The notes under the pieces: generated by a model
Told to the model about the DNA's origin: nothing
Databases searched by the model: none
Seen by the model: the letters and a program-made list of their open reading frames with translations, nothing else
Position numbers and translations under genes: made by a program
Assembly (NCBI GenBank): GCA_030603495.1
Contig: JAUVXR010000029.1
Coordinates: 1-29,947, forward strand
Length of the DNA: 29,947 nucleotides
Source: a bacterium
Lineage (GTDB): Bacteria > Armatimonadota > Zipacnadia > Zipacnadales > Zipacnadaceae
Direction of reading: 5' to 3'
Part shown: piece after piece, positions 9,121 through 29,947 of the stretch
Numbering within the stretch: position 1 is the first letter of the stretch
Layout: the number at the start of each line of letters is the position of its first letter

Positions 9121-9146
9121 GCCGGGGTTACACGAGAGCAGCGAAG

Positions 9147-10523: not shown

Positions 10524-11497
10524 TTATTAGGAGCCGAGCACCAGTGCGCGTAGACTTTGCCGGGGCGTGGACCGATGTGACATACTTCTCGGAGCCGTTC
10601 GGCGGAGCGACGCTGAATGCAGCAATAAAGCTGTACGTCGAGGGGGAGTTGGATGCGCACGAAGAGGAAGAGAGGTTGGATGTAGAGAGGATCGTCTCAG
10701 GGCCTAGCGGCAAGTACCGGGGGGCGGACCGAGCCGGCCTGAGCGTGAACTACCAGAGCAAGATCCCGGCAGGGAGCGGGCTAGGCACATCCGGGACATT
10801 GAACGTCGTGTGGCTGTCGCTGGTGCGGAGGCAACCGGTGAAAAGTATCGCGGAAAAGATGGAGATCGCCGCGCATGCCTACGATATCGAGAAGGTGCTG
10901 GGGATCATCGGCGGCAAGCAGGACCAGTACGCCTCGGCGGTGGGTGGGATCAATCTGTTTGAGTTCGGCGAGGAAGTGCGGCGGGTGCCGGTGGAGATGA
11001 GTCAGGAGCAGGTCGAGGAGCTGGAGCGGCATCTGGTACTGTGCTACACGGGCCGGCCGCGGCTCTCGTCGAATATCCACAAGAACGTCTGGGGGAACTT
11101 CCGGGCGGGTAAGAAAGAGACAGTCCGAGCGCTGTTTACCCTCCGGGACAGCGCATACGAGGGCAAAGAATATCTGGAGAGTGGCAGCCTGGACCAGCTA
11201 GGGGAGCTGATGAGCCGGCAGTTCGAGGCGACGAAGAAGCTGGACAGCTCGACTTCCAATGAGCAGATCGAGGAGTTGTTCGAGCTGGCGGCAGGCAGGA
11301 TTCTGGGAGCCAAGCCCTGTGGTGCTGGCGGGGGGGGCTGCCTGCTGTTTATGGGCAAGTCGCCCGAGCAGGCTCTGGCGTTGGCAGAGGAGCTAAAAAA
11401 GAAGCAGTTGACGGTAATTGACCTCCAATTCGATTTCGAGGGCTTGTGTATGGAGATGACCCCGTCGCAGACGGCGGACAGTAGCAAAAGCTCTTAA
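10520..11497 (+). CDS. GHMP-family sugar kinase (heptose-7-phosphate/fucose kinase-like)
   Basis: This 325-aa cytosolic kinase has the three GHMP motifs: an N-terminal APVRVDFAGAWTD (7-19), the ATP-binding PAGSGLGTSG (83-92), and the C-terminal KPCGAGGGGCLLF (about 266-278). GGKQDQYAS (131-139), with catalytic Asp135, is characteristic of the subgroup containing D-glycero-alpha-D-manno-heptose-7-phosphate kinase (HddA) and fucokinase-type enzymes. It probably makes a sugar-1-phosphate or 1,7-bisphosphate for nucleotide activation of a polysaccharide residue. No GmhA, GmhB or nucleotidyltransferase partner is in the window, so heptose versus another sugar is undecided. Confidence 0.8.
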   Translation: MIIRSRAPVRVDFAGAWTDVTYFSEPFGGATLNAAIKLYVEGELDAHEEEERLDVERIVSGPSGKYRGADRAGLSVNYQSKIPAGSGLGTSGTLNVVWLSLVRRQPVKSIAEKMEIAAHAYDIEKVLGIIGGKQDQYASAVGGINLFEFGEEVRRVPVEMSQEQVEELERHLVLCYTGRPRLSSNIHKNVWGNFRAGKKETVRALFTLRDSAYEGKEYLESGSLDQLGELMSRQFEATKKLDSSTSNEQIEELFELAAGRILGAKPCGAGGGGCLLFMGKSPEQALALAEELKKKQLTVIDLQFDFEGLCMEMTPSQTADSSKSS

Positions 11498-11509
11498 GGT
11501 ATCGCGGTT

Positions 11510-12712
11510 ATGCGCATAGGGATCAACGCGCTGGCGTGGGTGCCCGAGCAGCAGGCCGGTGTGGCGGTATACCTGCGCCAGCTGCTCGCGGCCCTGCAGG
11601 CTATTGATGCGGAAAACGAGTATATCCTGTATGTGGCCCGGGGGGCCCAGGGGCAGGCCGATCTGCGTGGCGAGAACTTCCGGGAAATAGCCTGCGCAGT
11701 CCCCCGCCGCTGGCGGCCCGGGCGGGTCCTGTGGGAGCAGACAGCACTGGCTGGGCGGGTGCGTGCTGGCGGGGTAGATGTCATGCTGTGTGCCGGGGGC
11801 CTGGTGCCGGGTAACCTCGGCATCCCCGCGGTGCAGATGATCCACGACCTGCAAGTCTTCCACTACCCTGAGAATTTCTCTTGGGCCAAGCGCAGATTCC
11901 TGACTGCTATGCTACCGCGCTCAGCGCGGGCGGCTAGCCTGACGCTGGCGAGCTCAGAGTATACGCGCGCCGATGTGATCAAGCTGCTCGGGCAACCTCG
12001 CAGTCGAACCCGCGTGGCGCTACTGGCCGGGGACAGCCGATATCAGCCGACCAGCGGCCAGGCAATTCGGGCGGCTAAGGACAAGTACGGTATAGGCGAG
12101 GAGTATCTGCTGTGCGTGGCGACGACGCATCGGCATAAGAACGTGGCGGCGCTGGTCAGGGCCTACGACCGGGTAGCGGAGGCGGGGGAGAGGCGCTGCG
12201 AGATAGTGCTGGTGGGCAAGCGCGGCTCAGGCCACAGGGCAGTGATGAATGCGGTGAGCGGCGCGCGTCACCGCGAGGGGATAAAGCTACCGGGGCGAGT
12301 GCCTAGAGAGGACTTAGCGGCACTCTATAGCGGGGCAACCGCTTTCGTCCTACCCTCGTTGTTTGAGGGGTTTGGGATGACGGTGCTGGAGGCGATGCAA
12401 TGCGGCTGTCCGGTGGCTTGTTCTTCGTTGACTGCGCTGCCGGAGGTGGCGGGTGACGCGGCGCTGCTGTTTGACCCGCGCGACGACGGTGCCTTCGCGG
12501 AAGCAGTCCAGCGGATCACCGAAGACGAAGCACTGCGGACGGAGTTGCGCGAGAAGGGGAGAGCCCGGGCGCAGGAGTTTAGCTGGGAGCGCACAGCGGG
12601 GCAAACACAGACAGCGCTGCTCGATGCTGGGGGCGGGGAGAGGTCCGGCAAGCAATCCCGGGGAAGTCTAATGGATAGACGCACAGCAACTCATGCTGAC
12701 AGATCCCCCTGA
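11510..12712 (+). CDS. GT4-family glycosyltransferase
   Basis: This 400-aa retaining glycosyltransferase has the GT-B fold: an N-terminal MRIGINALAW strand and Gly-rich loop, an IHDLQVFHYPENF acceptor-side segment (111-123), a linker with ASSEYTRADVIK (147-158), and the C-terminal donor domain with GRV (262-264) and the E-x7-E motif FEGFGMTVLE (E286 and E294). It presumably adds one sugar to the growing lipid-linked repeat unit on the cytosolic face. It lies 12 bp after the GHMP kinase and 15 bp before araB, so it is probably co-transcribed with both. The last about 35 residues are hydrophilic and non-conserved. Donor and acceptor cannot be read from sequence. Confidence 0.85.
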   Translation: MRIGINALAWVPEQQAGVAVYLRQLLAALQAIDAENEYILYVARGAQGQADLRGENFREIACAVPRRWRPGRVLWEQTALAGRVRAGGVDVMLCAGGLVPGNLGIPAVQMIHDLQVFHYPENFSWAKRRFLTAMLPRSARAASLTLASSEYTRADVIKLLGQPRSRTRVALLAGDSRYQPTSGQAIRAAKDKYGIGEEYLLCVATTHRHKNVAALVRAYDRVAEAGERRCEIVLVGKRGSGHRAVMNAVSGARHREGIKLPGRVPREDLAALYSGATAFVLPSLFEGFGMTVLEAMQCGCPVACSSLTALPEVAGDAALLFDPRDDGAFAEAVQRITEDEALRTELREKGRARAQEFSWERTAGQTQTALLDAGGGERSGKQSRGSLMDRRTATHADRSP

Positions 12713-12727
12713 GTAAGAGGCAACACG

Positions 12728-14416
12728 TTGAGCGACAAACGCTACTCTCTGGGCGTTGATTTCGGAACCAACTCTGTGCGGGCAGTGATTGTTGACGTCG
12801 GCGATGGCCAAGTCGTCGGAGCAGCGGTGCACGCTTACAAGCGGGGCGATGCAGGTATCCTGACGGACCCGGATAACCCGCACGTGGCGCGCCAGCATCC
12901 GGCTGACTACACCGCAGGCCTCGAGGCCAGTGTGCCCGGGGCCATTGCCGTGGCGGCGGGCACCGATGGCTTCGCACCAGCCAACATCATCGGGGTGGGC
13001 ATTGACACGACCGGCTCGACGCCGCTGCCAGTGGACGAAACCGGGACGCCGTTGGCCTTTCAGCCAGAGTTTGCAGGGAACCTCAACGCTCTGGCCTGGT
13101 TGTGGAAAGACCATTCCGGAGTGGCCGAGGCCGAGCATATCACCGAGCTGGCGTCCCAGTACCACCCCGAATACTTGGGCCGCTGTGGCGGGACGTATTC
13201 ATCCGAGTGGTTTTTCGCCAAGGTCTGGCACTGCCTGAACGTGGCGCCGGAGGTCTTTGACGCAGCGTATAGCTGGGTGGAATGCTGCGATTATATTCCG
13301 GCGCTACTCACTGGGACGCTTCGGCCCGAGGCGATTAAGCGCAGCGTCTGCGCTGCTGGGCACAAGGCTATGTATTGCGAAGAATGGTGTGGGCTACCGG
13401 ATGCAGAGTTCCTGGCAAGGCTCGATCCCAAGATTGGAGCGTTGCGCAAACGGCTCTATGAGCGGGCGTATAGCTCTGACATCGCGGCGGGTAGTCTGAC
13501 CGAGCAGTGGGCGGAGAAGCTGGGGCTGCCGAGCGGGATTCCGGTGGCGGTCGGTGCCTTCGACGCCCACCACGGCGCCGTAGGCGCTGGCGTGGGGGAG
13601 GGGACGCTGGTCAAGGTCATTGGCACCTCTTCGTGCGATATGACGGTGGCGAGCAAGGAATCAGGCAGCGCCGAGATCCCGGGCGTCTGCGGGGTCGTGG
13701 ACGGCTCGATCGTGCCAGGGTACTACGGCATCGAAGTCGGGCAGTCGGCAGTCGGGGATATCTTCAACTGGTGGGTGACAGAAATCTGCGGGGGTAGGGG
13801 AGAGCTGCACGAGGTGCTGACCGCAGAGGCGGCCCAACTCAAACCCGGCGAGAGCGGCCTGCTGGCGCTGGATTGGAATAATGGTAACCGGACTATTCTG
13901 GTGGACGCGCGTCTGACTGGGCTGCTCATCGGCCAGACGCTCCATACCACTCCCGCCGAGGTCTATCGGGCGCTGATCGAGGCGACTGCCTTCGGCGGCC
14001 TGACGATTCTCAACCGGTTGGAGGAGTATGGGGTGCCGGTGCATCGGGTGATCAACTGCGGGGGGATTGCCGAGAAGAACGCGATGCTGATGCAGATCTA
14101 TGCTGATGCAACCGGGCGAAGGATGGAGCTGTCGCGGGCGGAGGAGACCTGTGCCCTGGGTGCGGCAATATTCGGGGCGGTGGTGGCCGGCGAGGCGGCA
14201 GGCGGATATAGCACGACCGAACAGGCGCAAGCGGCGACGACAGGGACAAAGGATACTTATTACGAGCCGAACCCGGAGAACGAGCAGGTCTATGCTCAGC
14301 TTTATGAGCTATACAAGCGGCTGCACGACAGCTTCGGCCTGCCCGGACACAGCGACTGCTTGTATGATGTGATGAAGGAACTGCTGCGGATCAAGCAAGA
14401 TGCCGCGAGCGGCTAG
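12728..14416 (+). CDS. araB: Ribulokinase
   Basis: This 562-aa FGGY-family kinase has the AraB-typical length and closely follows AraB along its length: VDFGTNSVRAV (10-20), GVGIDTTGSTPLPVD (89-103), LWKDH (125-129), GGTYSSEWF (154-162), CAAGHKAMY (208-216), FDAHHGAVGAG (278-288, catalytic base D279) and KVIGTSSCDM (296-305). It phosphorylates L-ribulose to L-ribulose-5-phosphate with ATP. The start is a TTG at 12728, supported by AAGAGG 7 nt upstream and by the MSDKRYSLGVDFG alignment to the family N-terminus. It is followed 30 bp later by araD. No arabinose transporter or AraC/AraR regulator is nearby. Confidence 0.93.
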   Translation: MSDKRYSLGVDFGTNSVRAVIVDVGDGQVVGAAVHAYKRGDAGILTDPDNPHVARQHPADYTAGLEASVPGAIAVAAGTDGFAPANIIGVGIDTTGSTPLPVDETGTPLAFQPEFAGNLNALAWLWKDHSGVAEAEHITELASQYHPEYLGRCGGTYSSEWFFAKVWHCLNVAPEVFDAAYSWVECCDYIPALLTGTLRPEAIKRSVCAAGHKAMYCEEWCGLPDAEFLARLDPKIGALRKRLYERAYSSDIAAGSLTEQWAEKLGLPSGIPVAVGAFDAHHGAVGAGVGEGTLVKVIGTSSCDMTVASKESGSAEIPGVCGVVDGSIVPGYYGIEVGQSAVGDIFNWWVTEICGGRGELHEVLTAEAAQLKPGESGLLALDWNNGNRTILVDARLTGLLIGQTLHTTPAEVYRALIEATAFGGLTILNRLEEYGVPVHRVINCGGIAEKNAMLMQIYADATGRRMELSRAEETCALGAAIFGAVVAGEAAGGYSTTEQAQAATTGTKDTYYEPNPENEQVYAQLYELYKRLHDSFGLPGHSDCLYDVMKELLRIKQDAASG

Positions 14417-14446
14417 ACGAGCTCGCGCAGGCAGAAAGGCGCGCCG

Positions 14447-15139
14447 ATGTTAGAAGAGCTGAAGGCGCAGGTATGCGCAGCCAACCTGGCTCTGCACGCT
14501 GCGGGCCTGGCGATCCTAACCTGGGGCAATGCCAGCAGCATTGACCGCGATGAGGGCTTCGTCGTCATCAAGCCCAGCGGCGTGCCGTATGAGGGGCTCT
14601 GCCCGGAGCAGATGGTCGTGGTTGACCTCGACGGTAACGTAGTCGAAGGCAATCTGCGGGCCTCTTCGGATGCACTCACCCACCTGGTCTTGTATCGCGA
14701 ACTGGAGAGTATCGGGGGTGTGGCCCATACCCACTCGATCTATGCCAGTTCCTGGGCCCAGGCCTGCCGCAGCATACCCTGTTATGGGACGACTCATGCC
14801 GACCATTTCCGTGGCCCGGTGCCGGTCACAGAACAGTTGACACCAACGGCTTTGGAGGGCGACTACGAAGTGGAAATCGGCGAAGCAATTGTCCGGGCTA
14901 TGCAGGGAATAGACCCGGGCGAGATCCCAGGCATTTTGGTGGCCAGTCACGGCCCCTTTACCTGGGGCGAGTCGGCGGAGCAAGCGGCCCAGCACAGCAT
15001 CATTGTGGAGCAGATCGCGCGCATGGCGGCTTTAACCGAAGGCCTAGCGCCGACGGCGGGCCCAATCAGCGGACAGCTTCGAGATAAGCATTTCCTGCGC
15101 AAGCACGGCGCGGAGGCCTATTACGGGCAGATGCAGTAG
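14447..15139 (+). CDS. araD: L-ribulose-5-phosphate 4-epimerase
   Basis: The 230-aa product is essentially the length of E. coli AraD (231 aa). It converts L-ribulose-5-phosphate to D-xylulose-5-phosphate using a zinc-assisted retro-aldol/aldol mechanism. Metal ligands are H94, H96 (HTHS) and H168 (SHGPFTWG). The phosphate/substrate motifs GNAS (27-30), KPSG (42-45) and SSD (73-75) are present. The catalytic Asp is in THADHF (D119), and the C-terminal DKHFLRKHGAEAYYGQ contains the conserved late Tyr. These residues separate it from fuculose-phosphate aldolase, the closest alternative. It is the middle gene of the araB-araD-isomerase block. Confidence 0.93.
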   Translation: MLEELKAQVCAANLALHAAGLAILTWGNASSIDRDEGFVVIKPSGVPYEGLCPEQMVVVDLDGNVVEGNLRASSDALTHLVLYRELESIGGVAHTHSIYASSWAQACRSIPCYGTTHADHFRGPVPVTEQLTPTALEGDYEVEIGEAIVRAMQGIDPGEIPGILVASHGPFTWGESAEQAAQHSIIVEQIARMAALTEGLAPTAGPISGQLRDKHFLRKHGAEAYYGQMQ

Positions 15140-15189
15140 CCTGACGGTGCAGCGGGACCTATGTGCCCATCATAGTAGTGCTATTCTTT

Positions 15190-15196
15190 GGAGGTG
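15190..15196 (+). promoter_or_regulatory. Strong ribosome binding site for the isomerase gene
   Basis: GGAGGTG lies 6 nt before the ATG at 15203, the best Shine-Dalgarno site in the araBDA block, and settles the start. Confidence 0.85.
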
Positions 15197-15202
15197 TAGC
15201 AA

Positions 15203-16612
<1,410 letters not shown>

Positions 16613-16630
16613 GCCAGGGGGGCGCGGTTT

Positions 16631-17701
16631 TTACTGCTCCTCAAACGAAGGGAAGCCAGTGGGCAAGAAGTAGCGGAGGTACTGGGTGCGGGCAAACCGG
16701 TCGGTCATGCCAGCAATGTAATCACAGACCAGGCGTGCCCGCTGCGGGGAACTTGAGGGCGGGACCGCGGTGATCTGCGCGAAAGCCTGCTCGTCTTCCA
16801 TATAGAGCTCGAACAAGCTCCGGATTATCCCGGCGACCTTACTCGTCTCTCGCCGAATCCGGGGCGACTGGTAGACGTACTCAAGCAGGAAGTTCTTGAG
16901 TGCGTCAGTGGCCTCGACTACTTTGGTGCTCATCTGCAGGCGCGGCTGGTCAAGGCTATGCTGGATGAGGTCGCGTACCATCGTGCCCACCCTCTGGCTG
17001 TGGCGTTCCCCTATCACCTCGACAATCTCTGCGGGTAGTTCCTCTGAGCCGAGGAAGCCAGTACGCAGGCAATCGTCCAGGTCGTGGTTGAGATAGGCGA
17101 TCCGATCCGAGACCCGCACCACCATAGCCTCCAGCGTCTCGAGGTTGACAGCCCGCAAATCGGTCTTTAGGTCGTCCATGGACTTGCTGTGCGCCACGAT
17201 ACCGTGCCGGGTTTCTTGGGAGAGGTTGAGGCCTTGCCCGTCTCGCTCCAATACGTCTACAACGCGCAGGCTGTGCTCGTGGTGCGCGAAATGAGCCTCC
17301 GGGTCATAAGCGTGGTATGCTTCATGGAGGCTGTCCTCGCCGGCGTGCCCGAAGGGCGTATGGCCCACGTCGTGGGCGAGTGCTATGGCCTCGACGAGGT
17401 CTTCGTTCAGGCGCAGGGCTTTAGCGATAGTCCGCGCAATCTGCGAGACTTCCAGGGTGTGAGAGAGGCGGGTGCGCAGGTGGTCTTCGCGGGGTGATAT
17501 GAAGACCTGCGTTTTCTGGGCTAAACGCCGGAATGCCCGGCACAGGTGGATAATGCGGTCCCTATCGCGTTGAAAGATGGTGCGGACCGGACACGGTTCC
17601 TCCGGCCTAGGCCGTCCCGCCGACTCAGCACTCAGGGCCGCCAGGGGACTGAGGTAAACTCGCTCACGCTCTTCGATCTGCTCGCGGATGATCATCTTCA
17701 T
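16631..17701 (-). CDS. dgt: HD-domain deoxynucleoside triphosphate triphosphohydrolase (dGTPase-like)
   Basis: This 356-aa protein hydrolyses dNTPs to deoxynucleosides and tripolyphosphate in the cytosol, helping to balance dNTP pools. The metal-binding HD motif is complete: H81 (RLSHTLEV), H110-D111 (AHDVGHTPFGH) and D207 (NHDLDD). FRRLAQKTQVF (57-67) and RTRLSHTLEV are characteristic of the shorter type-2 dGTPase-like group. The first ATG (17699-17701) is used; another in-frame ATG lies two codons in, and neither has a strong ribosome site. It lies between polysaccharide genes but is an unrelated housekeeping gene, head-to-head with the SLBB gene. Confidence 0.88.
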   Translation of the reverse strand: MKMIIREQIEERERVYLSPLAALSAESAGRPRPEEPCPVRTIFQRDRDRIIHLCRAFRRLAQKTQVFISPREDHLRTRLSHTLEVSQIARTIAKALRLNEDLVEAIALAHDVGHTPFGHAGEDSLHEAYHAYDPEAHFAHHEHSLRVVDVLERDGQGLNLSQETRHGIVAHSKSMDDLKTDLRAVNLETLEAMVVRVSDRIAYLNHDLDDCLRTGFLGSEELPAEIVEVIGERHSQRVGTMVRDLIQHSLDQPRLQMSTKVVEATDALKNFLLEYVYQSPRIRRETSKVAGIIRSLFELYMEDEQAFAQITAVPPSSSPQRARLVCDYIAGMTDRFARTQYLRYFLPTGFPSFEEQ

Positions 17702-17746
17702 TGGGCAGGGCTGTCACACCACCTCGGCCACCCCGCCTCCCCACCA

Positions 17747-17755
17747 ATTATACCA
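17747..17755 (-). promoter_or_regulatory. Candidate promoter (-10) for the dNTPase gene
   Basis: The minus strand has a perfect TATAAT (plus positions 17747-17752) with an upstream TGG forming an extended -10. A TTGCCG lies 15 bp upstream as a weak -35. The distance to the ATG is about 45 bp, a normal leader. Confidence 0.55.
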
Positions 17756-17881
17756 CTAAACCGCCTCCGGCAACAGGGACGCAGTGTGGAGCCAGCATCC
17801 ACGGCGAAGGTATGCAGCCAGAGCGGGCGAATATATTCTCACCATAAGCCGGAGGGTAAGTCGAAAGGAATCTGGATAACT

Positions 17882-20602
17882 ATGCCTTTGCTGCGATGGA
17901 CGGGGGTTGTCGTGTTGTCTTTAATGTTGATCGCCTACGCAGGCTACGCGCCTAGCATAACGACAGCCTACGCAGCGGACGGCGACGGTGACCAAGGGGC
18001 AGAGTCCGAGCAGATCCCCGGAGTAGCAATTCCGGCCTCGCCGGTGGTGAGCGAACAGCCTTCAGCGCCAGAGGGGGATGAAGCTGGGCCCGCGGTGCAG
18101 TTCCCGCTGTGGGAGCGGGCTGCCGAGGAGTGGGAACTGCCTGAGGAGATGCGGCTGGAGAACCTGAAGCGGTTTGGCGAGGACTTATTCGCGCAGAGCG
18201 GCGGCCCGGAGCCGCGCACAGCCAATATGCCGGTTTCCCCACAATACATTGTCGGTCCCGGCGACGAGCTGGCCGTCCGAGTCTGGAGCGAGGGCATCGA
18301 GCATCTCAACAGAAGAGTAATAGTGGCGGCTGAGGGCACAGTATATCTCCCCCTGCTGGGTGAGATCGCAGTGGCGGCCACGCCCCTGGGGGGAGTGCGC
18401 GATACCATCGCCCAGAGCTTGAGTCAGTTCTATGTTGACGCCCAGACCTCGGTGACCGTCGCCAGTACCCGGGTGATCGCCGTCTACGTGACCGGTGACG
18501 TGACTAAGCCGGGCCGCTACGGACTCGACGGGACCGCCACGGCTCTGACTGCCCTATACATGGCCGGTGGGCCTACGCCGGCTGGCTCCCTACGCAATAT
18601 TCGCTTGCTGCGCATGCAGCAGGAGCCTGGCGAGATTGATTTATATCCCTACTTGCTGGCTGGTGAGCCCTTGGACGAACCTCTGTTGGAAAGCGGCGAC
18701 ACTGTTTTTGTCGGGCCGGTTGGTAGTGAAGTTGGGGTAGCCGGAGCAGTGCGCCGGCCGGGACGGTACGAATTGGTTGATCCAACCACCTGTCTCGAGG
18801 CGATAAAGATGGCTGGCGGGCTGATCCCGGAAGGCTCGGGTACGGGTGTGAGGGTCTGGCGGATCGCCGACCACCAGCAGCAAGTAGTCATCAACGTAGA
18901 CCTGGGGCAGTCGGCTGAGATAGGGGGAAGGTGGGGCGGAGGATTTCTGCTGGAGCCTGGGGATGTGGTAGTGGTCGCGCCTGTGGACCGCATGCCGGGG
19001 AATGCAGCTCGCATCAGCGGCGCAGTGCGTCGCCCCGGTATCTATCAGGTCGAAGAGGGTATGACTGTCGGAGCACTCATTGGCCGGGCCGGCGGTCTCG
19101 ACGAGGGTGCCTACTTGGGCTATGGGCGGATTCGGCGTCTCGATGAGCAACGACAGCACCAGTACGAGAGTTTTTCGGTGCAGGACGCCTTGGATGAGGG
19201 CACGGATTCCATTGCTCTGAGGCCTTATGACACGGTGCATGTCTATTATCGCCGCGAAATCACTCCCATAACGCACGTGGAAGTAAGGGGGCCGGTCCAG
19301 CAGCCCGGGAAGTACGAATGGGTGGCCGATATGCGCATCCGTGACCTGGTGATGCAAAGCGGCGGCCTGACCGATGAAGCCTATCTCAAGCAGGCCCGCA
19401 TCTTGCGCCTGCGTTTGGGCCAGGGCCGGAGTGTTTTGAAGGTGAAATTACAGGAGGCCCTCGCTGACGATCCCGGCAGCAACATGCGGCTCCAGCCCGG
19501 CGATCTTCTGGAGCTAGTTACCCGCGCGGCGGCCGGGCCGCCCCACACGGTGCACATCGCTGGTTTCGTGCAACGGCCCAGTAGCTACGAACGTTTCCAG
19601 GGCATGAGAGTCAGCGACCTGATCCTTGCTGCCGGGAGCTTGACCCCGGGCGCCAGTGAGTCTATTGAGTATGCCCAGGGCCGCCAGACGGGCCCCCCGC
19701 GAGTCCATCAACTGGCACTAGATGCGGGCCGAGATGGTGAAATCGCGGTACAGCCGGATCTGGTGCTAAGCGATGATGACCAGGTCACCGTACTGGGCCT
19801 GGGCGATTTCCGCCAGCAGCCGCCGGTAGTTAGGGTAGACGGGCAGGTCCAAGCCCCTGGTGCGTACATCCTCCGTGGCGGCACCGAAGAGAGCGAAACC
19901 GTCTACGACCTGCTCCAGAGAGCTGGCCCCTTGCTGGAAAATGCCAATCCCGATGGCATCATCCTCTACCGGCCTACCGAGCAAGCCATGACCAGTAGCC
20001 AGCGGCAGAACCTCCAGCAAATTATGGCGATGTACAACCGGGAAGCGGGCAGCGACGTGATGACCAGGGAGAGCGAGCTCCAGCGCACGGTCATGGCTGA
20101 GCAGATAGCTGCCAATGTCGGCCAGTTATTGGCTGGCAGCAGCGGCATGGCGCTGATTGTGCCGCCGCGCTCGTTGAGTATCTCGGCGTGGATAAGCGGG
20201 ATCCCTGTGGAGGGCAGCAAGTTACTGGCCAGCCTGGGGAAAGAAGGCAATATGCCTCTGCAACCGGGGGACACGGTTATGGTACCCCAGTTGCAGGAAA
20301 CGGTCGCTGTCTTAGGTGCGGTTATCCGTCCAGGCAAGGTCGCCTATCACGAAGGCGCAAAGATTCCCCAGTATGTTAGTATGGTCGGGGGCGAAGCCGA
20401 TGATGCGGTGGTAAGCCGGGCCGTGGTAGTTAGAGCTAACGGTGCGGCGCATCGCGGGCGCGATGCCCAGGAGATAAAACCGGGCGACATAATCATCATA
20501 CCTTCAGACTACATGGTCCGCATGGTCCGTACCGATAGCACCTTCGAGCGGGTCATGAAGGTGCTGGGCAGTGTCGCTGCGACCTTCTTGTTACTTAACT
20601 AA
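17882..20602 (+). CDS. Large SLBB-domain polysaccharide export protein (Wza-like)
   Basis: Starting at ATG 17882, the product is 906 aa. Residues 1-32 form a signal peptide (LLRWTGVVVLSLMLIAYAG, cleavage near AYA-AD). The frame is open upstream to 17546, but that part overlaps the dNTPase gene and would bury the signal peptide. AAAGGA lies 12 nt upstream of the ATG. A polysaccharide-export domain begins near residue 117 (YIVGPGDELAVRVW). About seven SLBB repeats then follow, near residues 201, 283, 376, 464, 556, 648 and 807, each with a G-x-V-x-x-P-G-x-Y-like core. A helical insertion separates the last two. It ends in a hydrophobic tail (VLGSVAATFLLLN). Wza itself is only about 380 aa. It probably forms the periplasmic/outer-membrane export channel. 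There is no lipobox cysteine, unlike Wza. Confidence 0.85.
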   Translation: MPLLRWTGVVVLSLMLIAYAGYAPSITTAYAADGDGDQGAESEQIPGVAIPASPVVSEQPSAPEGDEAGPAVQFPLWERAAEEWELPEEMRLENLKRFGEDLFAQSGGPEPRTANMPVSPQYIVGPGDELAVRVWSEGIEHLNRRVIVAAEGTVYLPLLGEIAVAATPLGGVRDTIAQSLSQFYVDAQTSVTVASTRVIAVYVTGDVTKPGRYGLDGTATALTALYMAGGPTPAGSLRNIRLLRMQQEPGEIDLYPYLLAGEPLDEPLLESGDTVFVGPVGSEVGVAGAVRRPGRYELVDPTTCLEAIKMAGGLIPEGSGTGVRVWRIADHQQQVVINVDLGQSAEIGGRWGGGFLLEPGDVVVVAPVDRMPGNAARISGAVRRPGIYQVEEGMTVGALIGRAGGLDEGAYLGYGRIRRLDEQRQHQYESFSVQDALDEGTDSIALRPYDTVHVYYRREITPITHVEVRGPVQQPGKYEWVADMRIRDLVMQSGGLTDEAYLKQARILRLRLGQGRSVLKVKLQEALADDPGSNMRLQPGDLLELVTRAAAGPPHTVHIAGFVQRPSSYERFQGMRVSDLILAAGSLTPGASESIEYAQGRQTGPPRVHQLALDAGRDGEIAVQPDLVLSDDDQVTVLGLGDFRQQPPVVRVDGQVQAPGAYILRGGTEESETVYDLLQRAGPLLENANPDGIILYRPTEQAMTSSQRQNLQQIMAMYNREAGSDVMTRESELQRTVMAEQIAANVGQLLAGSSGMALIVPPRSLSISAWISGIPVEGSKLLASLGKEGNMPLQPGDTVMVPQLQETVAVLGAVIRPGKVAYHEGAKIPQYVSMVGGEADDAVVSRAVVVRANGAAHRGRDAQEIKPGDIIIIPSDYMVRMVRTDSTFERVMKVLGSVAATFLLLN

Positions 20603-20631
20603 GACCCAGGCGCGCAGACGGTGGCTGACTC

Positions 20632-22038
20632 ATGGCTGCAGACAATCTGTTAACGCACGGCCTTCGCCCTCTTCGTGTTGCCGGTCTGGGCCACTGGAGA
20701 GTTTTAGTGGCGTATGTCTTTGCCGTGCTCCTCGCGGTTATGGCCACGCTATTAGTTGTTTCCGGGACTGCGTCTGGCACCGCGTTAGCTGGACTTCGCC
20801 CCGCCGCCGTGCTCTTGGGGCTCTGCTGGTTAGCCGCTTTAGTACTATGCGGCGAGGCCCGCCTCCGCCCCGCAAGGACTAAGCTCCAACAACTGATTGG
20901 CGCCGGCAAAGGCATCGCTGTCGGCACGGCAGCGGCCTTGCTCATAGAAGCGGCTCTGCCGCCGCCCGCTGCGTTTACTCCCGTACAATATGGCATCGCC
21001 GCCCTCCTGGCCGTAGGCCTGGCTTGGGCAGCTTACCGGATAGCCGCCGCCGGGACGCCGAAGCGTTGCTATTTGGTGATCTCTGGCGACGGTATTGCTT
21101 ACCCGCTGGCCGAGTGCGTGCAGAACGGCGAGCCCGCTGGCTATCACGAGATCGTGGGAATTCTGACTGACGACAATGACCTGCGGCGGCAGGATCTTCC
21201 GGTGTTCCACAGCGGTTCGCAGTGGGAAGTGGTTGCGCCTCTCGCCCAGACGCTCCGTGCTAATCGCGTGGTTGTTGCCGGGAACCATAGACTCTCTGAC
21301 GAGGCTGTCAGCAGTCTCCGCCAGTGCCGGGAGCAAGGCATACCGGTTCTTAGTGCAGTATCGGCCTACGAGGAAATCACTAGCAAGACGCCCCTGCCAG
21401 AACTGGAAGAGGCTTTGGCTGATGGTGAATGCCGGCCTCCCCGGACCATCTACGCCCGGTACCTCAAGCGTCCGGCAGATGTCATGTTAACTCTGCTATT
21501 ACTGCCCCTGGCTCTGCCAATAATTGGGGTATGCGCCATCTTCATAAAGATACTTATGCCGGGTCCGGTCTTTTACCGGCAGGAGCGCGTCGGCTATCGA
21601 GGCAAAAGGTTCTATTTGACTAAGTTGCGGACCATGGTCTTGGATGCCGAAAAAGAGACCGGCCCGATCTGGGCTCGGGAGGACGACTCCCGCGTGACCA
21701 CCTTGGGGCGCCTGCTCCGCCGGGCGAGGATTGACGAGTTGCCCCAGCTTTTCCACGTCCTCACCGGTGATATGGGGCTGGTCGGCCCGCGGCCCGAGCG
21801 CCCCCACTTTGTGGCTGAGTGGGCCCAACGCTTGCCCTCCTACCACGAGCGCTCCCGCGTCCTTCCCGGCATTACTGGCTGGGCCCAGGTCAACCATCAT
21901 TATGGTGGCTGCTTCGAGGATGTCTGCGAAAAGCTGCGCTACGATCTCTATTATATCCGCCGCCGGTCCTGGGCCTTGGACTTGGACACGTTACGCCGGA
22001 CAGTGGGGGTCATTATCCACGGCCGCGGCGCCCGCTAG
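20632..22038 (+). CDS. Undecaprenyl-phosphate sugar-phosphate transferase (WcaJ/WbaP-like)
   Basis: This 468-aa membrane protein is expected to transfer a sugar-1-phosphate from a nucleotide sugar to undecaprenyl phosphate, starting repeat-unit synthesis. The N-terminal half has about four hydrophobic helices (roughly 22-45, 55-75, 92-112 and 118-140) and a CoA-binding-like soluble domain (about 145-265). The C-terminal catalytic domain shows YLKRPADVM (277-285), a membrane re-entrant hydrophobic stretch ending in Pro-Gly-Pro (310-312), KLRTM (331-335), the DELPQL catalytic pair (D368 and E369) and GLVGPRPERP (382-391). It lies 29 bp after the SLBB gene, probably in the same transcript, and ends at a strong hairpin. 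Confidence 0.92.
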   Translation: MAADNLLTHGLRPLRVAGLGHWRVLVAYVFAVLLAVMATLLVVSGTASGTALAGLRPAAVLLGLCWLAALVLCGEARLRPARTKLQQLIGAGKGIAVGTAAALLIEAALPPPAAFTPVQYGIAALLAVGLAWAAYRIAAAGTPKRCYLVISGDGIAYPLAECVQNGEPAGYHEIVGILTDDNDLRRQDLPVFHSGSQWEVVAPLAQTLRANRVVVAGNHRLSDEAVSSLRQCREQGIPVLSAVSAYEEITSKTPLPELEEALADGECRPPRTIYARYLKRPADVMLTLLLLPLALPIIGVCAIFIKILMPGPVFYRQERVGYRGKRFYLTKLRTMVLDAEKETGPIWAREDDSRVTTLGRLLRRARIDELPQLFHVLTGDMGLVGPRPERPHFVAEWAQRLPSYHERSRVLPGITGWAQVNHHYGGCFEDVCEKLRYDLYYIRRRSWALDLDTLRRTVGVIIHGRGAR

Positions 22039-24827: not shown

Positions 24828-26480
24828 ATGCCTGGTTGCGTGGCGTGGCTGCCGGTTTTTGTGGCGGCTGCTGTTGTGCTGACGGGATGCGGCAGTGACA
24901 CCAATGGAGTGGGCGTCTCGTCGGCGCGGGACTCCTCTTGGGCCTCTCAGCCGCCTGCTATCTACCCCGCCACGGAAGGCCTTCTCCTGGGCGATCTCTC
25001 GCTCAACGGGGCTATGGACGCCGACGATGCTGCTGCTCTGATGCGCATTGTGGTGGGTTTGGACCCGGGGACGTGCTGCTCTGACGTCAACCACAACGGC
25101 CGGGACGATCTGGGAGATGCTCTGCAGGTCTTGCGCTGGGCCTCGGGAGCCGACACTTGGCCGCGGGAGCACTGCGGTGGGGGCGGTTCGGCGAACCTCG
25201 ATGAGGCTCTCGCTGCTCCTTATGCTACCTCCCCACAGACCGAAGAACCGGGCGACCCAGGGGTGGAGCTACTGGAGATTTATGAGAACGATCCCCCCGA
25301 AGACATTGCCGAGTTGTCCCAGATGCTCGCCGCCTTTACCAACCACGTCAATGCATACCCCAACTCCTCCGCCGGCCAACTTGGTCTTGCCCTGGCCATT
25401 CTCTGGACGGGAGCAGAGAATGCCGCTGACGAACTGGGCTATGCCCTCTACCCCGACCTGGGGGTCGCATCAACAGCCGCCCTCTGTCTGGAGGGGGATT
25501 ACACTCCTGATAGTATGGTAAATCAGGCCCTGGATCTGGCTCTGTTCTCCCCGGTGGGGCAAAGCCCGGGGCAGGTCCAGACCGCTGGTTCTATCCCTGA
25601 CACTTTCTTGACTACCGAGGAAGTCCAGCGCGTCATCAAAGACCATCTCCTGCCGGTAATCGAGGCCGCCCTGGCCCGCCTGGACCCACTGTGCAATGCC
25701 CCTGCTGACACAGTACTCATCACCTACGTATATCACGGTGACACTTACCATCTCTATCCTGCCGACTGCAATCTAGTTGCTGCGGGTCTGTGTATGGCTC
25801 GGGCTGTCCTCCTGCAACTGGTCTCGTACAGCTTAGACGCGGCTGCTTACGACTGGGAGCTGGAGCTCTTCGAGCGGGATGCTAACTCCGACGGCATTCT
25901 CACTGTTGCCGAATACACGCCTGCCGACCCCTTCCTTACTTTGCTGAGCGCGGCCGATATGCAACAAGCCGGCGCCGCCCTCGCCGAAGCACTTGATAGG
26001 GTAGTCACTGCGATGGAGAACTGCGTGACTAGTGATCCCCAGGAGCTGGCCATGATTCTCCTGGGGCCTACCTTGCCCGCCGATGTCAGGGATATGGCCC
26101 AATCGGCTGCAGAGATGCTGGCTGGCCCAGTCACTGTAGATGCCCAGCATGCTCACTATGACTTTGATGCTGGGACCTGGTACGACGTGGGCACTGCTAC
26201 CTTCCTGATGCAGCTCGGGCGGCTCTGGAGCAATCCGGCGGCGGACCTCAAAGCCCTACTGCCCTCGCTGACGATGACCTACGACGGCGCACAGTGGCAT
26301 TACCGATTCACCTATGACGACTTACCCGACCCCACTATGAACGGCCTCTTCCCTGATGCTGCCTTTATGTACAACGACCTCTGGCGGGCCGATTACGAAT
26401 ACCTGCTGATTTCATACGGCGCTTTTGAGATCCAACTCAACAGTAACTACCCGGGCTGGGCCATTCCCCCTTTCCCCTAA
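24828..26480 (+). CDS. Lipoprotein with N-terminal dockerin and internal EF-hand
   Basis: With the ATG at 24828 the product is 550 aa and begins with a lipoprotein signal peptide (VVLTGC lipobox, Cys21). The frame is open upstream to 24627 but would hide this signal. Residues about 55-105 form a type-I dockerin: two calcium-loop repeats, GDLSLNGAMDADDAAALMR and DVNHNGRDDLGDALQVLR, spaced as in dockerins. A separate EF-hand loop (DANSDGILTVAE) lies near residue 350. The other about 400 residues, mostly helical-looking and acidic, match no family I recognise. Dockerins usually sit at a C-terminus, so an N-terminal one after the lipid anchor is unusual. It probably binds calcium and a cohesin partner at the cell envelope. 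It is convergent with the cohesin lipoprotein gene. Confidence 0.8.
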   Translation: MPGCVAWLPVFVAAAVVLTGCGSDTNGVGVSSARDSSWASQPPAIYPATEGLLLGDLSLNGAMDADDAAALMRIVVGLDPGTCCSDVNHNGRDDLGDALQVLRWASGADTWPREHCGGGGSANLDEALAAPYATSPQTEEPGDPGVELLEIYENDPPEDIAELSQMLAAFTNHVNAYPNSSAGQLGLALAILWTGAENAADELGYALYPDLGVASTAALCLEGDYTPDSMVNQALDLALFSPVGQSPGQVQTAGSIPDTFLTTEEVQRVIKDHLLPVIEAALARLDPLCNAPADTVLITYVYHGDTYHLYPADCNLVAAGLCMARAVLLQLVSYSLDAAAYDWELELFERDANSDGILTVAEYTPADPFLTLLSAADMQQAGAALAEALDRVVTAMENCVTSDPQELAMILLGPTLPADVRDMAQSAAEMLAGPVTVDAQHAHYDFDAGTWYDVGTATFLMQLGRLWSNPAADLKALLPSLTMTYDGAQWHYRFTYDDLPDPTMNGLFPDAAFMYNDLWRADYEYLLISYGAFEIQLNSNYPGWAIPPFP

Positions 26481-26567
26481 TCACATTCTCCCTTGTCGTT
26501 CTTTGCTCCGCTCTCCCTGAGGGAGAGGGGCTGAGGGGTGAGGCTGCTGTTCCTGTCGTCAAAAAAG

Positions 26568-26596
26568 GGGGCCACTGCACAGGCAGCGGCCCCTTT
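26568..26596. terminator. Bidirectional Rho-independent terminator
   Basis: The stem pairs GGGGCC (26568-26573) with GGCCCC (26588-26593), has one A/C mismatch, then pairs CTGC (26575-26578) with GCAG (26583-26586) around an ACAG loop. On the plus strand TTTGTT follows. On the minus strand six U residues follow, from the A-run 26561-26566. It sits between the convergent dockerin lipoprotein and cohesin genes and can serve both. Confidence 0.85.
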
Positions 26597-26624
26597 GTTA
26601 TACTCACTGGTTGTCTTCCCGGAT

Positions 26625-27461
26625 TTACTGGATCGTCACGGTACCGTCGCGCCTTTGCGGGTCTGGCGCGATCTGGGTAGCCACAGCGGTCCAGAATTCC
26701 ACCGGCGTGGGTGCATTGAGGATGTTAACTGCGGGAGTATCGCCTGCTGTGCCGGTTGCTCGCAGGTCAATCTTCAGGAGCTCCGTCTGCCCGGCGATGA
26801 AGTTCTGAATCTGCTTGGCGGTGTCGTCCCAGCCGACTATCGCCACCCGGATTTGTCCGGGGATGCCCGTGTTCGTCACCATTATGTGATTCGGGGCCGC
26901 TGGCACCGCGTCACCCGGACTGACCGAGTCCACACCGTTGGCTAGCTCGAGCTTCGTCTCATCATACTCCACCGTCATCTGATAGCCTGCTGGCGCGCTT
27001 GGCGCGGCGGACATATACACCGACACCGTCACCACCTCACCTGCCGGGACCTCCGCGTCGCCCGCATAGACGGTGAACTGGCTTGCCCCCACGGTGACCG
27101 TAATGGTCGCAGTATCTGAGTCTTCGGGCGAGCCGACGTCGTAAGCTGTGGCCTTTATCTGATATTCTCTCTCTTCCAGTCCCGCGGTGTGCCAGTCGTA
27201 CTGGTACGGCAAGGTTGTATCAGTCTTTCGCAAGTCGTCGTCAATGTAGAATTTCACTCCTGGGCTTATGCTCGGCGACGCGATCACACTAGCAGTCACA
27301 ACTACTACTGGGCCTGGCTCAATACTTTCCCCGGCGCTAGGTTGGATGATCGTCACTGTGATTTCTTCGCCATCTCCCCCGCCGTTACCGCCGCCCCCCC
27401 CGCAGCCCACAGTGATGAGCGCCAGTATAGTTAATGAAGATAGTGCCCAGTATCTGTACAT
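26625..27461 (-). CDS. Cohesin-domain lipoprotein with Ig-like domain
   Basis: This 278-aa protein has a lipoprotein signal (LITVGC, Cys20), a Gly-rich linker, an Ig-like beta domain (about 34-125, beginning ITVTIIQPSAGESIEPG and ending in a TATITVTV strand), and a C-terminal cohesin-type domain (about 130-277). The latter has the family's features: an opening AGDAEVPAGEVVTVSVYM, a GYQMTVEYDETKLEL strand pair, and a late LLKIDLRATGTAGDTPAVNI. Cohesins bind dockerins with calcium. The ATG has GGAGG 8 nt upstream. It is 86 bp downstream of the small dockerin lipoprotein gene and probably in the same transcript. Confidence 0.8.
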   Translation of the reverse strand: MYRYWALSSLTILALITVGCGGGGGNGGGDGEEITVTIIQPSAGESIEPGPVVVVTASVIASPSISPGVKFYIDDDLRKTDTTLPYQYDWHTAGLEEREYQIKATAYDVGSPEDSDTATITVTVGASQFTVYAGDAEVPAGEVVTVSVYMSAAPSAPAGYQMTVEYDETKLELANGVDSVSPGDAVPAAPNHIMVTNTGIPGQIRVAIVGWDDTAKQIQNFIAGQTELLKIDLRATGTAGDTPAVNILNAPTPVEFWTAVATQIAPDPQRRDGTVTIQ

Positions 27462-27547
27462 TACAACTACCTCCCTGCAATATCTCGGCCAGTTACGGAA
27501 TTCTTTGAATTAGCGATATCGTTATTCAGCAATAATCAGCCCACGGG

Positions 27548-27961
27548 CTAAATGGGTGGTGGTGGTGGTGGTCCTGCGGGCCAGTCGAAGGGCCAGTCTA
27601 TCTCGCCGGCCGCGGCCCTCAGCACCTTCAGCGCGTCGCCGACTTCCACTGCAGAGTTGTAATCAGCATCCGCGACAACGCTATAGGCATCATCAGGTCC
27701 CACCACGACACCCATAATCAACTGCGCGTCGTTAGCCGTCGGCAACTGGTCCGCGTCCATATCCCCGGGGCCCGCCTGGTCTCCTCCACTAGCTGGCCCT
27801 ACTGGGTACTGGCTGATGGACATCTGCCCTGCCACGCTTGCGCTCTCCCCTCCTCCTGCCGGCGAGCCTCCCCCGCACCCCGCTGTACCCACTACCACAA
27901 ACATAGCCAGCGCCACGATGCTTACGATAATTCCGCTAAGATAGCTTTGCTTGTTACACAC
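27548..27961 (-). CDS. Small dockerin-like lipoprotein
   Basis: This 137-aa protein starts at a GTG (27959-27961) with AGGAG 9 nt upstream. A lipoprotein signal ends at VGTAGC (Cys29), followed by a Gly/Ser-rich linker. Residues about 65-125 form a dockerin-like duplicated calcium-loop region: GDMDADQLPTANDAQLIMG and ADADYNSAVEVGDALKVLR. The first loop lacks the usual Asn-Gly-Asp glycine turn, so calcium binding there may be weak. The C-terminus is a proline run (GPPPPPPI). It sits directly upstream of the cohesin lipoprotein, which suggests the two are partners. The function is otherwise unknown. Confidence 0.75.
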   Translation of the reverse strand: MCNKQSYLSGIIVSIVALAMFVVVGTAGCGGGSPAGGGESASVAGQMSISQYPVGPASGGDQAGPGDMDADQLPTANDAQLIMGVVVGPDDAYSVVADADYNSAVEVGDALKVLRAAAGEIDWPFDWPAGPPPPPPI

Positions 27962-28242: not shown

Positions 28243-29947
28243 TTAGAAGGGAACGACAACTCCGGCCACTAGCAGCTTAACGTCAGGGAACCATTGGGCT
28301 TCTGCGGGTGTGACCTGCTGGGTGGCGTAGGTCAAAGTGACATCCACGCCGTCAGCGACTGTCTTGGTCATGCGGACGCCCCACAGAGTGTCATACAGGG
28401 GCTGATTGTCCATATAGCCCCAGGCACCCATTGTAGCCCACTGGGTCTGACTCCAGTTGTAGCCATTGCCGTCGAGGCTGTAGTACATCGCCTCGAACGG
28501 AGTGCCAGCAATCTGGAAGTCAAGCTGCCCCCCGACAACCTCCACGTTAGGCATCGCCAGCGGATTGCGCAGCCAGCGTTCCCAGGGGATCCACACCTGC
28601 CACTTGGTGAAGCCGTTCATCAGCGCGCTGGAGATAGCCGGCTGATAGTCGTCCCCGTAAGGCTCCCAGTAGGGATTGGCGGTGGAGAAGTAGGGGTTGA
28701 ACATAGCATCCAGGTCTGCGTAGTAGCCACGCAGCGCCCACTTGCTCCCCTTGAAGACATCCACCATCGCCATCACGCCGGTGGGATCGCCGCCGGAGAA
28801 CGACTCGGTACCGAACGTGTCGGTTGTGAGTTTGGCGTACTCGGCATATAGCTCCCGATTACCCCATAGCTTCATCCACAGGTCGGCGCCGTAGCCTTCT
28901 TCTTTGCCAAAGCCATCCACTAGGCAGTTACCACCAATCGCCCAGCTCGCATTGTCCAAGCTGACGCGAGCGGATAGGTAGCCGTCGTCCGCACCAGACC
29001 AGACGTTGTTCCCGTAGGTGGTGTCGGAGAAGATGACGTTCTCGATGGCGTTCAGGCCCCAGGTATCAAAGTCGTAGCCCGAACCGCCCGCGAAGAACTC
29101 CCAATCCAGGAAGCCCAGCGCATTGTTGAACTCGCCGCGAACGCCCTGCTGGGACATCCGCTCGTTGTTGACCAACAAGCCCAGGCCGTAGCTCTGGAAT
29201 TGGCGGCCTACTGTCCAGTTCCCGTTGATCAGACCACGGGTCGGGAACATCAGGCACGCCTCGTCCAGCCAGACCGTCTCGGCACGCCGCCCATCTACCG
29301 CCGGCATGATGGTAAACGGAACCGGAGCAGGCTGCATTGGTCGCACCATGGCCCCGTAGCCACGCCACCAGCGCGGATCGGAGGTGTCCCGGACCTTCAG
29401 GACGACCCTGCCCGACAGCTCGTCGGTGATCGCTCCCTCAATGCCGATCTTAGCGGTGAGGTTATCGAACTCACCACCCATGTCCAGATCGTCATCAACG
29501 TAGGGCTCCATAGGATCGGGCGAGTAGTCTACTAACTGCCCGGGGCCGACCTGGTCGTTGTTGTAGTACTCCTCCATCTCGACGGTGCTGGCCAGGCCGA
29601 GGCGATAGTCAATCCAACCGGTCACCTCGGGACCCTTGGCCTGCTCCAGAGCAGTTACCCGGTCACCCAGGTCCCAGACGTCGTCCTGGAGATAGTCCAC
29701 ATCGTTGCGCAGATCAGCAAGCTCATCCGCGAACTCCTTGGTCAACTCCTGAACGATCGCACGGACCTCGTCGTAGTCAACTTCCCCCTGATCACCCTTG
29801 GGGCCGGCCGGCCCAACTGCACCGGTAGCGCCCTTGGCTCCCTGGGGGCCTGCAGCGCCCCTAGCTCCCGTGGCCCCCTTGGGACCAGCCAGGCCCGGCG
29901 TCTGCTCGATGGCATCCAGCATCCGGCTCAGCGCCATAGCGAACTCG
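28243..29947 (-). CDS. SLH-anchored outer-membrane porin with collagen-like linker (5' end cut)
   Basis: The frame is open through the right edge, so the N-terminus is missing. The first visible residues (EFAMALSRMLDAI) look like the end of an SLH domain, which in OmpM/SlpA-type proteins binds peptidoglycan-linked polymer. About 12 Gly-X-Y triplets follow (GPKGATGARGAAGPQGAKG and similar), then a coiled coil (about 50 residues, heptads around LADLRNDVDYLQDDVWDLG), then about 460 residues of alternating aromatic/polar beta-barrel sequence ending in VVVPF, with a C-terminal Phe as in outer-membrane proteins. The layout implies an outer-membrane porin tethered to the cell wall. The collagen-like segment between SLH and coiled coil is unusual. 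A strong terminator follows. Confidence 0.85.
   Translation of the reverse strand, partial: EFAMALSRMLDAIEQTPGLAGPKGATGARGAAGPQGAKGATGAVGPAGPKGDQGEVDYDEVRAIVQELTKEFADELADLRNDVDYLQDDVWDLGDRVTALEQAKGPEVTGWIDYRLGLASTVEMEEYYNNDQVGPGQLVDYSPDPMEPYVDDDLDMGGEFDNLTAKIGIEGAITDELSGRVVLKVRDTSDPRWWRGYGAMVRPMQPAPVPFTIMPAVDGRRAETVWLDEACLMFPTRGLINGNWTVGRQFQSYGLGLLVNNERMSQQGVRGEFNNALGFLDWEFFAGGSGYDFDTWGLNAIENVIFSDTTYGNNVWSGADDGYLSARVSLDNASWAIGGNCLVDGFGKEEGYGADLWMKLWGNRELYAEYAKLTTDTFGTESFSGGDPTGVMAMVDVFKGSKWALRGYYADLDAMFNPYFSTANPYWEPYGDDYQPAISSALMNGFTKWQVWIPWERWLRNPLAMPNVEVVGGQLDFQIAGTPFEAMYYSLDGNGYNWSQTQWATMGAWGYMDNQPLYDTLWGVRMTKTVADGVDVTLTYATQQVTPAEAQWFPDVKLLVAGVVVPF

Follow-up and report, generated by a model that had tools for sequence, protein, structure and literature searches.

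Three neighbouring genes of the window, by which we mean the entire contig G000:C46 (29,947 bp), are read here as a minimal, lipid-anchored, non-cellulosomal set of cohesin and dockerin proteins. The genes encode a large predicted dockerin lipoprotein of 550 residues (24828-26480, plus strand), a predicted cohesin lipoprotein of 278 residues (26625-27461, minus strand) and a small predicted dockerin lipoprotein of 137 residues with a GTG start (27548-27961, minus strand). In the reading that we favour, and to which we give a probability of roughly one half, the set would act as a calcium-dependent clip that clusters lipoproteins in one membrane, and it would probably be carried on a plasmid of ~41 kb with an RPA replication initiator, ParA and polysaccharide-export genes. 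The host genome (2.67 Mb, 62 contigs) appears to be that of an uncultured deep-sediment bacterium. It is placed in or near the class Candidatus Zipacnadia (Armatimonadota), since a query with the replication initiator gave loci from metagenome-assembled genomes of this class.

The cohesin lipoprotein gave the clearest domain assignment. Behind its predicted anchor cysteine (Cys20) lie a Big_7 Ig-like domain at residues 35-104 (27150-27359, minus strand; PF17957, E 5.2e-11) and a cohesin domain (26730-27071, minus strand). The Pfam search of the protein with PF00963 gave an E-value of 1.4e-11 and 45-46 bits against a curated cut-off of 24.1, and Big_7 likewise exceeded its cut-off. In the PF00963 search of the whole genome the same domain (E 1.0e-11, above the cut-off) was the sole cohesin. 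By these profile matches the presence of a cohesin behind an Ig-like domain is certain, and the earlier note on this DNA had both the places of the three genes and this domain order right. The AlphaFold model of a relative's cohesins (L075) matched the Archaeoglobus fulgidus cohesin 2xdh with a template modelling (TM) score of 0.80 and 1g1k with 0.77, normalised by target; this fold comparison rests on the homologous L075 cohesins and not on the window protein. The cohesin proteins of relatives include cohesin-dockerin-Big_5 and cohesin-dockerin-Big_5-Big_7-cohesin lipoproteins, and these fusions would formally count as adaptor or scaffoldin-like.

Each dockerin module of the window has, by sequence, two tandem 12-residue calcium-loop motifs. 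In the large protein the module occupies residues 55-107 (24990-25148, plus strand), behind the lipobox cysteine Cys21, and is followed by a domain of ~430 residues with no assigned function. Its loops are DLSLNGAMDADD and DVNHNGRDDLGD, and it matched the dockerin family profile A4 with an E-value of 8.0e-21. The small protein has its module at residues 66-119 (27605-27766, minus strand), between Cys29 and a WPFDWPAGPPPPPPI tail, with loops DMDADQLPTAND and DADYNSAVEVGD and an A4 E-value of 5.9e-20; it has no other domain. All four loops have D, N or S at the calcium positions 1, 3, 5 and 12. The window modules were included in the build of A4. A profile built from relatives only, searched against the six-frame translation of the window, matched exactly two open reading frames, 27548-27961 (E 1.8e-19) and 24828-26480 (E 1.5e-14). 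Against the Protein Data Bank (PDB), A4 matched solved dockerins (2ccl_B at 3.8e-5, 1ohz_B at 5.6e-5 and 4uyp_B within E 4e-5 to 6e-5), and dockerins of XynY, CelS and ScaB are among its matches there. One relative has in this cluster a protein (L074:11086-12231) that reached 25.2 bits with the Pfam dockerin family PF00404, whose cut-off is 22.9. Because of the relatives-only match, the PDB match and this PF00404 pass in a relative, both window modules are dockerins by homology, in the wider sense of the term.

The pairing of cohesin and dockerin, which had been offered earlier as an inference, is supported independently by their near-perfect co-occurrence. Among 46 genomes of the class, with cohesins counted at E<=1e-5, both modules were found in 11, neither in 34 and a dockerin only in one (G030), where a weak dockerin adjoins an equally weak cohesin. 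Fisher's test, which ignores phylogeny, gave P = 9e-10 at the level of genomes and P = 5e-4 at that of genera. The genomes of the class are related, so these values overstate independence; presence is nonetheless patchy, with the modules in 5 of 7 species of the window's genus and 2 of 5 of another. The pairing bears on a different explanation, in which these dockerins are not what the cohesin binds: they would be calcium-stabilised spacers behind the anchor, and the cohesin would have some other partner. The excess of dockerins in expanded genomes (54 against 6 cohesins in G032) fits such an explanation. Many dockerins to few cohesins is, however, the usual ratio in cellulosomes too, and the co-occurrence, the direct adjacency of the two modules in minimal genomes (G001, G003, G005 and G006, each with one cohesin and one dockerin) and the natural cohesin-dockerin fusions all argue for partnership. 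We therefore consider the spacer explanation improbable.

The earlier note had also predicted three lipoproteins. The prokaryotic lipobox pattern is fitted by the cohesin protein (by eye) and by the small dockerin protein (pattern check). The large dockerin protein has a good LTGC box, but from its annotated start no Lys or Arg precedes the hydrophobic stretch, a residue that its orthologues do have. The two window dockerins begin 33-37 residues past the predicted anchor cysteine, and for 64 of the 70 modules examined a lipobox-like motif precedes the dockerin by 18-61 residues (median 34). The same lipobox-linker-dockerin head recurs in relatives, where A4 gave 54 matches in G032, 16 in G011, 11 in G008, seven in G013, six in G034 and five in G041, against two in the window genome. 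The window set is the minimal version of a family whose dockerin proteins number in the dozens in relatives, a point that the earlier account had missed. The cargo behind the dockerin in relatives includes NHL and PD40 beta-propellers, FGE-sulfatase-like domains and CarboxypepD_reg, with beta-propellers and FGE-like domains the commonest identified types; GH113, subtilase and RCC1 occur once each, and there is a beta-helix domain. Orthologues of the small dockerin protein (51-58% identity) are present in four congeners (G001, G003, G005, G006) and in G013.

The mechanism that we favour would start with both dockerins binding the single cohesin in a calcium-dependent manner. The cohesin lipoprotein would then serve as a lipid-anchored hub that collects dockerin lipoproteins into patches, perhaps close to the polysaccharide-export machinery. 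Relatives have an enlarged version of this arrangement, to which cohesin-dockerin-cohesin proteins and dockerin lipoproteins by the dozen are added. Binding in cis, within one membrane, would be easiest because the dockerin is membrane-proximal and any cargo lies outside it.

The same anchors could also work in trans, with the cohesin on one cell binding a dockerin lipoprotein on another cell that has the same plasmid; kin aggregation or biofilm formation would follow, aided by polysaccharide from the same replicon. Both partners are predicted to be lipid-anchored, the small dockerin protein has no cargo to block access and ends in its proline-rich tail, and polysaccharide-export genes share contigs with the cluster. 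Two congeners without a full RPA gene (G002, which is only 67% complete, and G004) lack both halves of the pair. The position of the dockerin so near its anchor, in most relatives beneath 100-900 residues of cargo, would however give poor reach to another cell, and in G003, G005 and G006 the cohesin too follows its anchor closely and lacks an Ig-like spacer. Adhesion in trans is for these reasons rather unlikely, and would be most plausible for the small dockerin protein.

A separate observation concerns the tail of the small dockerin protein (27551-27595), a run of 5-6 prolines followed by one Ile or Phe. All small dockerin orthologues end in the same way (L067-L072, L074, L075, L078), as do a dockerin-free Big_7 lipoprotein adjoining the cluster (L070:9296-9949) and an open reading frame of G009 (L085:5176-6441); L240 ends in PPPPPPPV. 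The ending resembles a conserved signal or ligand at the C-terminus. The small dockerin protein had no match among the viral contigs searched.

The window set is not a cellulosome, as judged from its gene content, because there is neither a multi-cohesin scaffoldin nor a dockerin-bearing glycoside hydrolase; there are one cohesin and two dockerin proteins with no Pfam enzyme domain. No glycoside hydrolase or scaffoldin was seen in the window, with 12 neighbouring genes scanned by Pfam and the remainder inspected by eye, and neither dockerin protein has a catalytic Pfam domain. The non-cellulosomal context described in the earlier note therefore holds. A small cellulosome-like complex that digests polysaccharide would use the same module types, and GH113 on one relative's dockerin protein and the beta-helix domain on another's could be read in its favour. 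With just two dockerins and one cohesin in the genome, no catalytic match in either dockerin protein, and propellers and FGE-like domains prevailing in the cargo of relatives, we regard such a complex as very improbable.

The replicon was inferred mainly from relatives, in which the cluster is also conserved as a neighbourhood. On eight contigs from seven relatives the small dockerin gene lies directly next to the gene for the RPA replication initiator (PF10134), and the ParA of the window genome was matched on seven of these eight. The relatives' contigs with the cluster measure 9-41 kb, and at least one appears to be circular. RPA and ParA occur together on G000:C16, G006:C37, G011:C128, G013:C66 and G008:C1. 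The two ends of contig G011:C128 (34,198 bp) share 114 identical bp that are absent elsewhere in that genome, and for this reason it is taken as probably circular. On G013:C66 (39,465 bp) the halves of one Big_7-cohesin gene lie at opposite ends, with an inexact join, which is suggestive of a circle. RPA is found on two contigs of G013, and a separate dockerin-cohesin pair accompanies it on each. Synteny between the window and G006:C37 (41,498 bp) extends across 13 genes, the cluster included. The RPA and ParA genes of the window genome are on G000:C16 (10,982 bp), the end of which shares an exact 141-bp overlap with the window (29807-29947, plus strand) within a gene for an SLH-collagen-porin-like protein. 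A join of C46 and C16 is favoured because G006:C37 holds both gene sets on one contig, and the window would then probably be most of a ~41-kb plasmid (about 40.8 kb for C46 and C16 together). The plasmid-type replicon with ParA and the polysaccharide-export genes had not been recognised in the earlier account. In the plasmid collection, most RPA relatives have an annotation as replication initiator. No direct repeats of at least 14 bases, as expected of iterons, were found beside the initiator. A search of the plasmid collection with one expanded dockerin member gave matches dominated by its propeller cargo, so that the layout could not be traced.

Several results weigh against the favoured reading. 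PF00404 had no match in either window dockerin protein or anywhere in the genome, and NCBIfam likewise gave no dockerin call on the window proteins; the earlier claim of two dockerin-like proteins thus holds by the relatives-only profile and the PDB match and fails by the Pfam family itself. The predicted local distance difference test (pLDDT) value of the dockerin was below about 50 in both AlphaFold models made, so the fold has no support from prediction. These models were of the large dockerin protein and of a natural cohesin-dockerin-cohesin chain, folded in search of intramolecular docking, whose dockerin came out with low confidence. That the small dockerin protein lacks cargo fits poorly with a role in clustering only. 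As to the plasmid, the identical ends of G006:C37 are a 23-bp tandem repeat, a weaker case for circularity than that of G011. The end of contig C45, whose porin is 76% identical, has the same 141 bp, so the join between C16 and the window is ambiguous by sequence and the linkage rests on synteny; for this reason we did not accept the join as proven.

These last points enter into a further alternative, in which the replicon is an integrated element or a chromosomal region; its link to a plasmid would then be a coincidence, and the genes would count among the ordinary envelope genes of the chromosome. The ends of the window do not close, its join to C16 is ambiguous, and it holds housekeeping-like genes for PEPCK, LpxB and a dGTPase-like HD protein. 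The unique terminal overlap of G011:C128, the gene whose halves lie at the two ends of G013:C66, the joint presence of RPA and ParA on contigs and the two separate RPA contigs of G013 all speak for a plasmid instead, and a chromosomal origin seems to us quite improbable. PEPCK and LpxB (2564-4342 and 211-1422) are found on this probable plasmid, and PEPCK also on the contigs of relatives; as plasmid cargo they are unusual, which suggests a domesticated replicon or chromid.

The small dockerin and cohesin genes are both on the minus strand, separated by about 86 bases. A strong intrinsic-terminator-like hairpin with an 11-pair stem and a T tail lies 3' of the cohesin gene (26593-26568, minus strand), and another one 3' of the upstream porin gene (28212-28185, minus strand) sets the porin apart. 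Because of the short gap and the two hairpins, the small dockerin and cohesin genes probably form one transcription unit. Nine terminator-like sites were observed in the region against 2.3 expected.

Comparison with known systems shows which parts are new. Like the clostridial cellulosome, with its CipA cohesins and type I dockerin enzymes, the window has a cohesin above the Pfam cut-off and two-loop dockerins that match XynY, CelS and ScaB by profile. Unlike it, the minimal form has one cohesin per genome, no carbohydrate-binding module or enzyme cargo was recognised in the window, both partners are predicted lipoproteins, the core is linked to a plasmid-type replicon, and the dockerin is N-terminal and membrane-proximal. 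Cellulosomal dockerins are typically C-terminal. Non-cellulosomal cohesin-dockerin pairs have reportedly been reviewed by Peer et al. in 2009.

The pairs of Archaeoglobus fulgidus and of anaerobic methanotrophic (ANME) archaea resemble the present set in their few cohesins, non-cellulolytic hosts, varied cargo and proposed surface attachment, and the cohesin fold of a relative matches 2xdh of A. fulgidus. They differ from it in that here we find predicted lipoproteins of a diderm bacterium, a fixed anchor-linker-dockerin layout, cargo rich in beta-propellers and a plasmid-linked core. Cohesin and dockerin modules are established in non-cellulolytic bacteria and archaea, and binding has been measured for archaeal pairs; ANME archaea have multi-cohesin proteins, with ABC-transporter binding proteins and S-layer proteins as cargo (PMC9012536). 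The word 'undescribed', which the earlier note had used of the system, was accordingly too strong. A recent survey (PMC11557425) recognises single-cohesin proteins without known function, adaptors that join cohesin and dockerin, and several classes of anchoring scaffoldin, among them those of the cell wall; these are among the closest known systems, and a word search of that text gave neither 'lipid' nor 'Armatimon'. The main text of the Candidatus Zipacnadia class description (PMC10290634) has no cohesin, dockerin, lipoprotein or plasmid. With the RPA-type plasmids of Planctomycetes, Thermus and Deinococcus the window shares the family of the replication initiator, and it differs in its cohesin and small dockerin proteins, which had no match in the plasmid collection. 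In the literature searched we found neither lipid anchoring of both partners nor the fixed layout nor a link to such a replicon. From the gene and domain data, what appears new is the cluster beside an RPA initiator, mostly with ParA, the predicted dual lipid anchoring and the fixed layout; cohesin-dockerin pairs outside cellulosomes were known already.

Such modules have been known for years and have no agreed function. With both halves predicted to be lipid-anchored, the clustering of surface proteins or the joining of cells is more likely than plant-fibre digestion. A fuller picture, which we put forward tentatively, is of a plasmid-encoded, calcium-switched lipoprotein clip that forms ordered patches on the outer membrane, or contacts there that are specific to kin. 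In it the plasmid would supply the cohesin hub, the small dockerin as a plug with its conserved proline-rich tail and the polysaccharide-export genes, and the rest of the genome could add dozens of dockerin-tagged lipoproteins to plug into this hub. In the minimal genomes a single cohesin adjoins one or two dockerins, all with a predicted lipid anchor, so that the questions of binding and of cis or trans action are approachable with two or three proteins. The anchor-proximal layout, found in about 60 proteins, points to a general means of sorting lipoproteins into assemblies on the surface. The core may also, as its link to the replicon suggests, move between strains along with polysaccharide-export genes. 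For protein engineering, the family offers a new and compact set of candidate cohesin-dockerin pairs.

Full-length orthologues of the large dockerin protein (49-51% identity) are present in G008, G011 and G013. Its C-terminal domain recurs free of the dockerin in other genomes of the order, nearly all of which lack a cohesin, and once in its own genome (G000:C20); the dockerin is therefore a removable module. The confident AlphaFold model of this domain had no Foldseek match at E<=0.001, and VIA-align gave middling matches to helical-repeat, AspH-TPR and SusD-like chains, with Z up to 8.4, which we judged uninformative. An extra EF-hand-like stretch, RDANSDGILTVAEY, lies within the domain at 25878-25913 (about residues 351-362) and is kept in dockerin-free relatives (alignment A5).

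Elsewhere on the contig, a polysaccharide assembly and export block (7666-22038, plus strand with some genes on the minus strand) has Wzz-like and Wzy-like genes, assigned by appearance, and GHMP kinase, glycosyltransferase, SLBB/Poly_export and sugar transferase genes, assigned by Pfam. It is interspersed with sugar-metabolism genes and the dGTPase-like HD protein. The long cluster contigs of relatives share with the window the PEPCK, dGTPase-like, SLBB export, Wzz-like, Wzy-like, GHMP-kinase and glycosyltransferase genes.

The SLH-collagen-porin-like gene (28243-29947, minus strand) is represented by its C-terminal part, cut by the contig end, with a collagen repeat and a barrel recognised by appearance; its N-terminus is likely on G000:C16, where SLH is found. 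The genome has at least two such genes (28243-29947 and the starts of G000:C45 and G000:C52), with near-identical N-terminal regions and barrels 76% identical. The start of the contig (1-197) has a 12-bp tandem repeat, CTCCGCTTCCTC, in 10.6 copies, followed by an 18-bp repeat, and these repeats are probably the reason for the assembly break. On G000:C16, a truncated LpxB-like fragment (L143:638-1018) resembles the C-terminus of the window LpxB and lies beside low-complexity sequence, possibly as a duplication at an unjoined replicon end. Also on this contig are an AAA ATPase (AAA_15/AAA_21) and, directly after it, a DUF4435-like protein (L143:4113-6303), both absent from the relatives' contigs examined; the pair resembles a small defence-type cassette.

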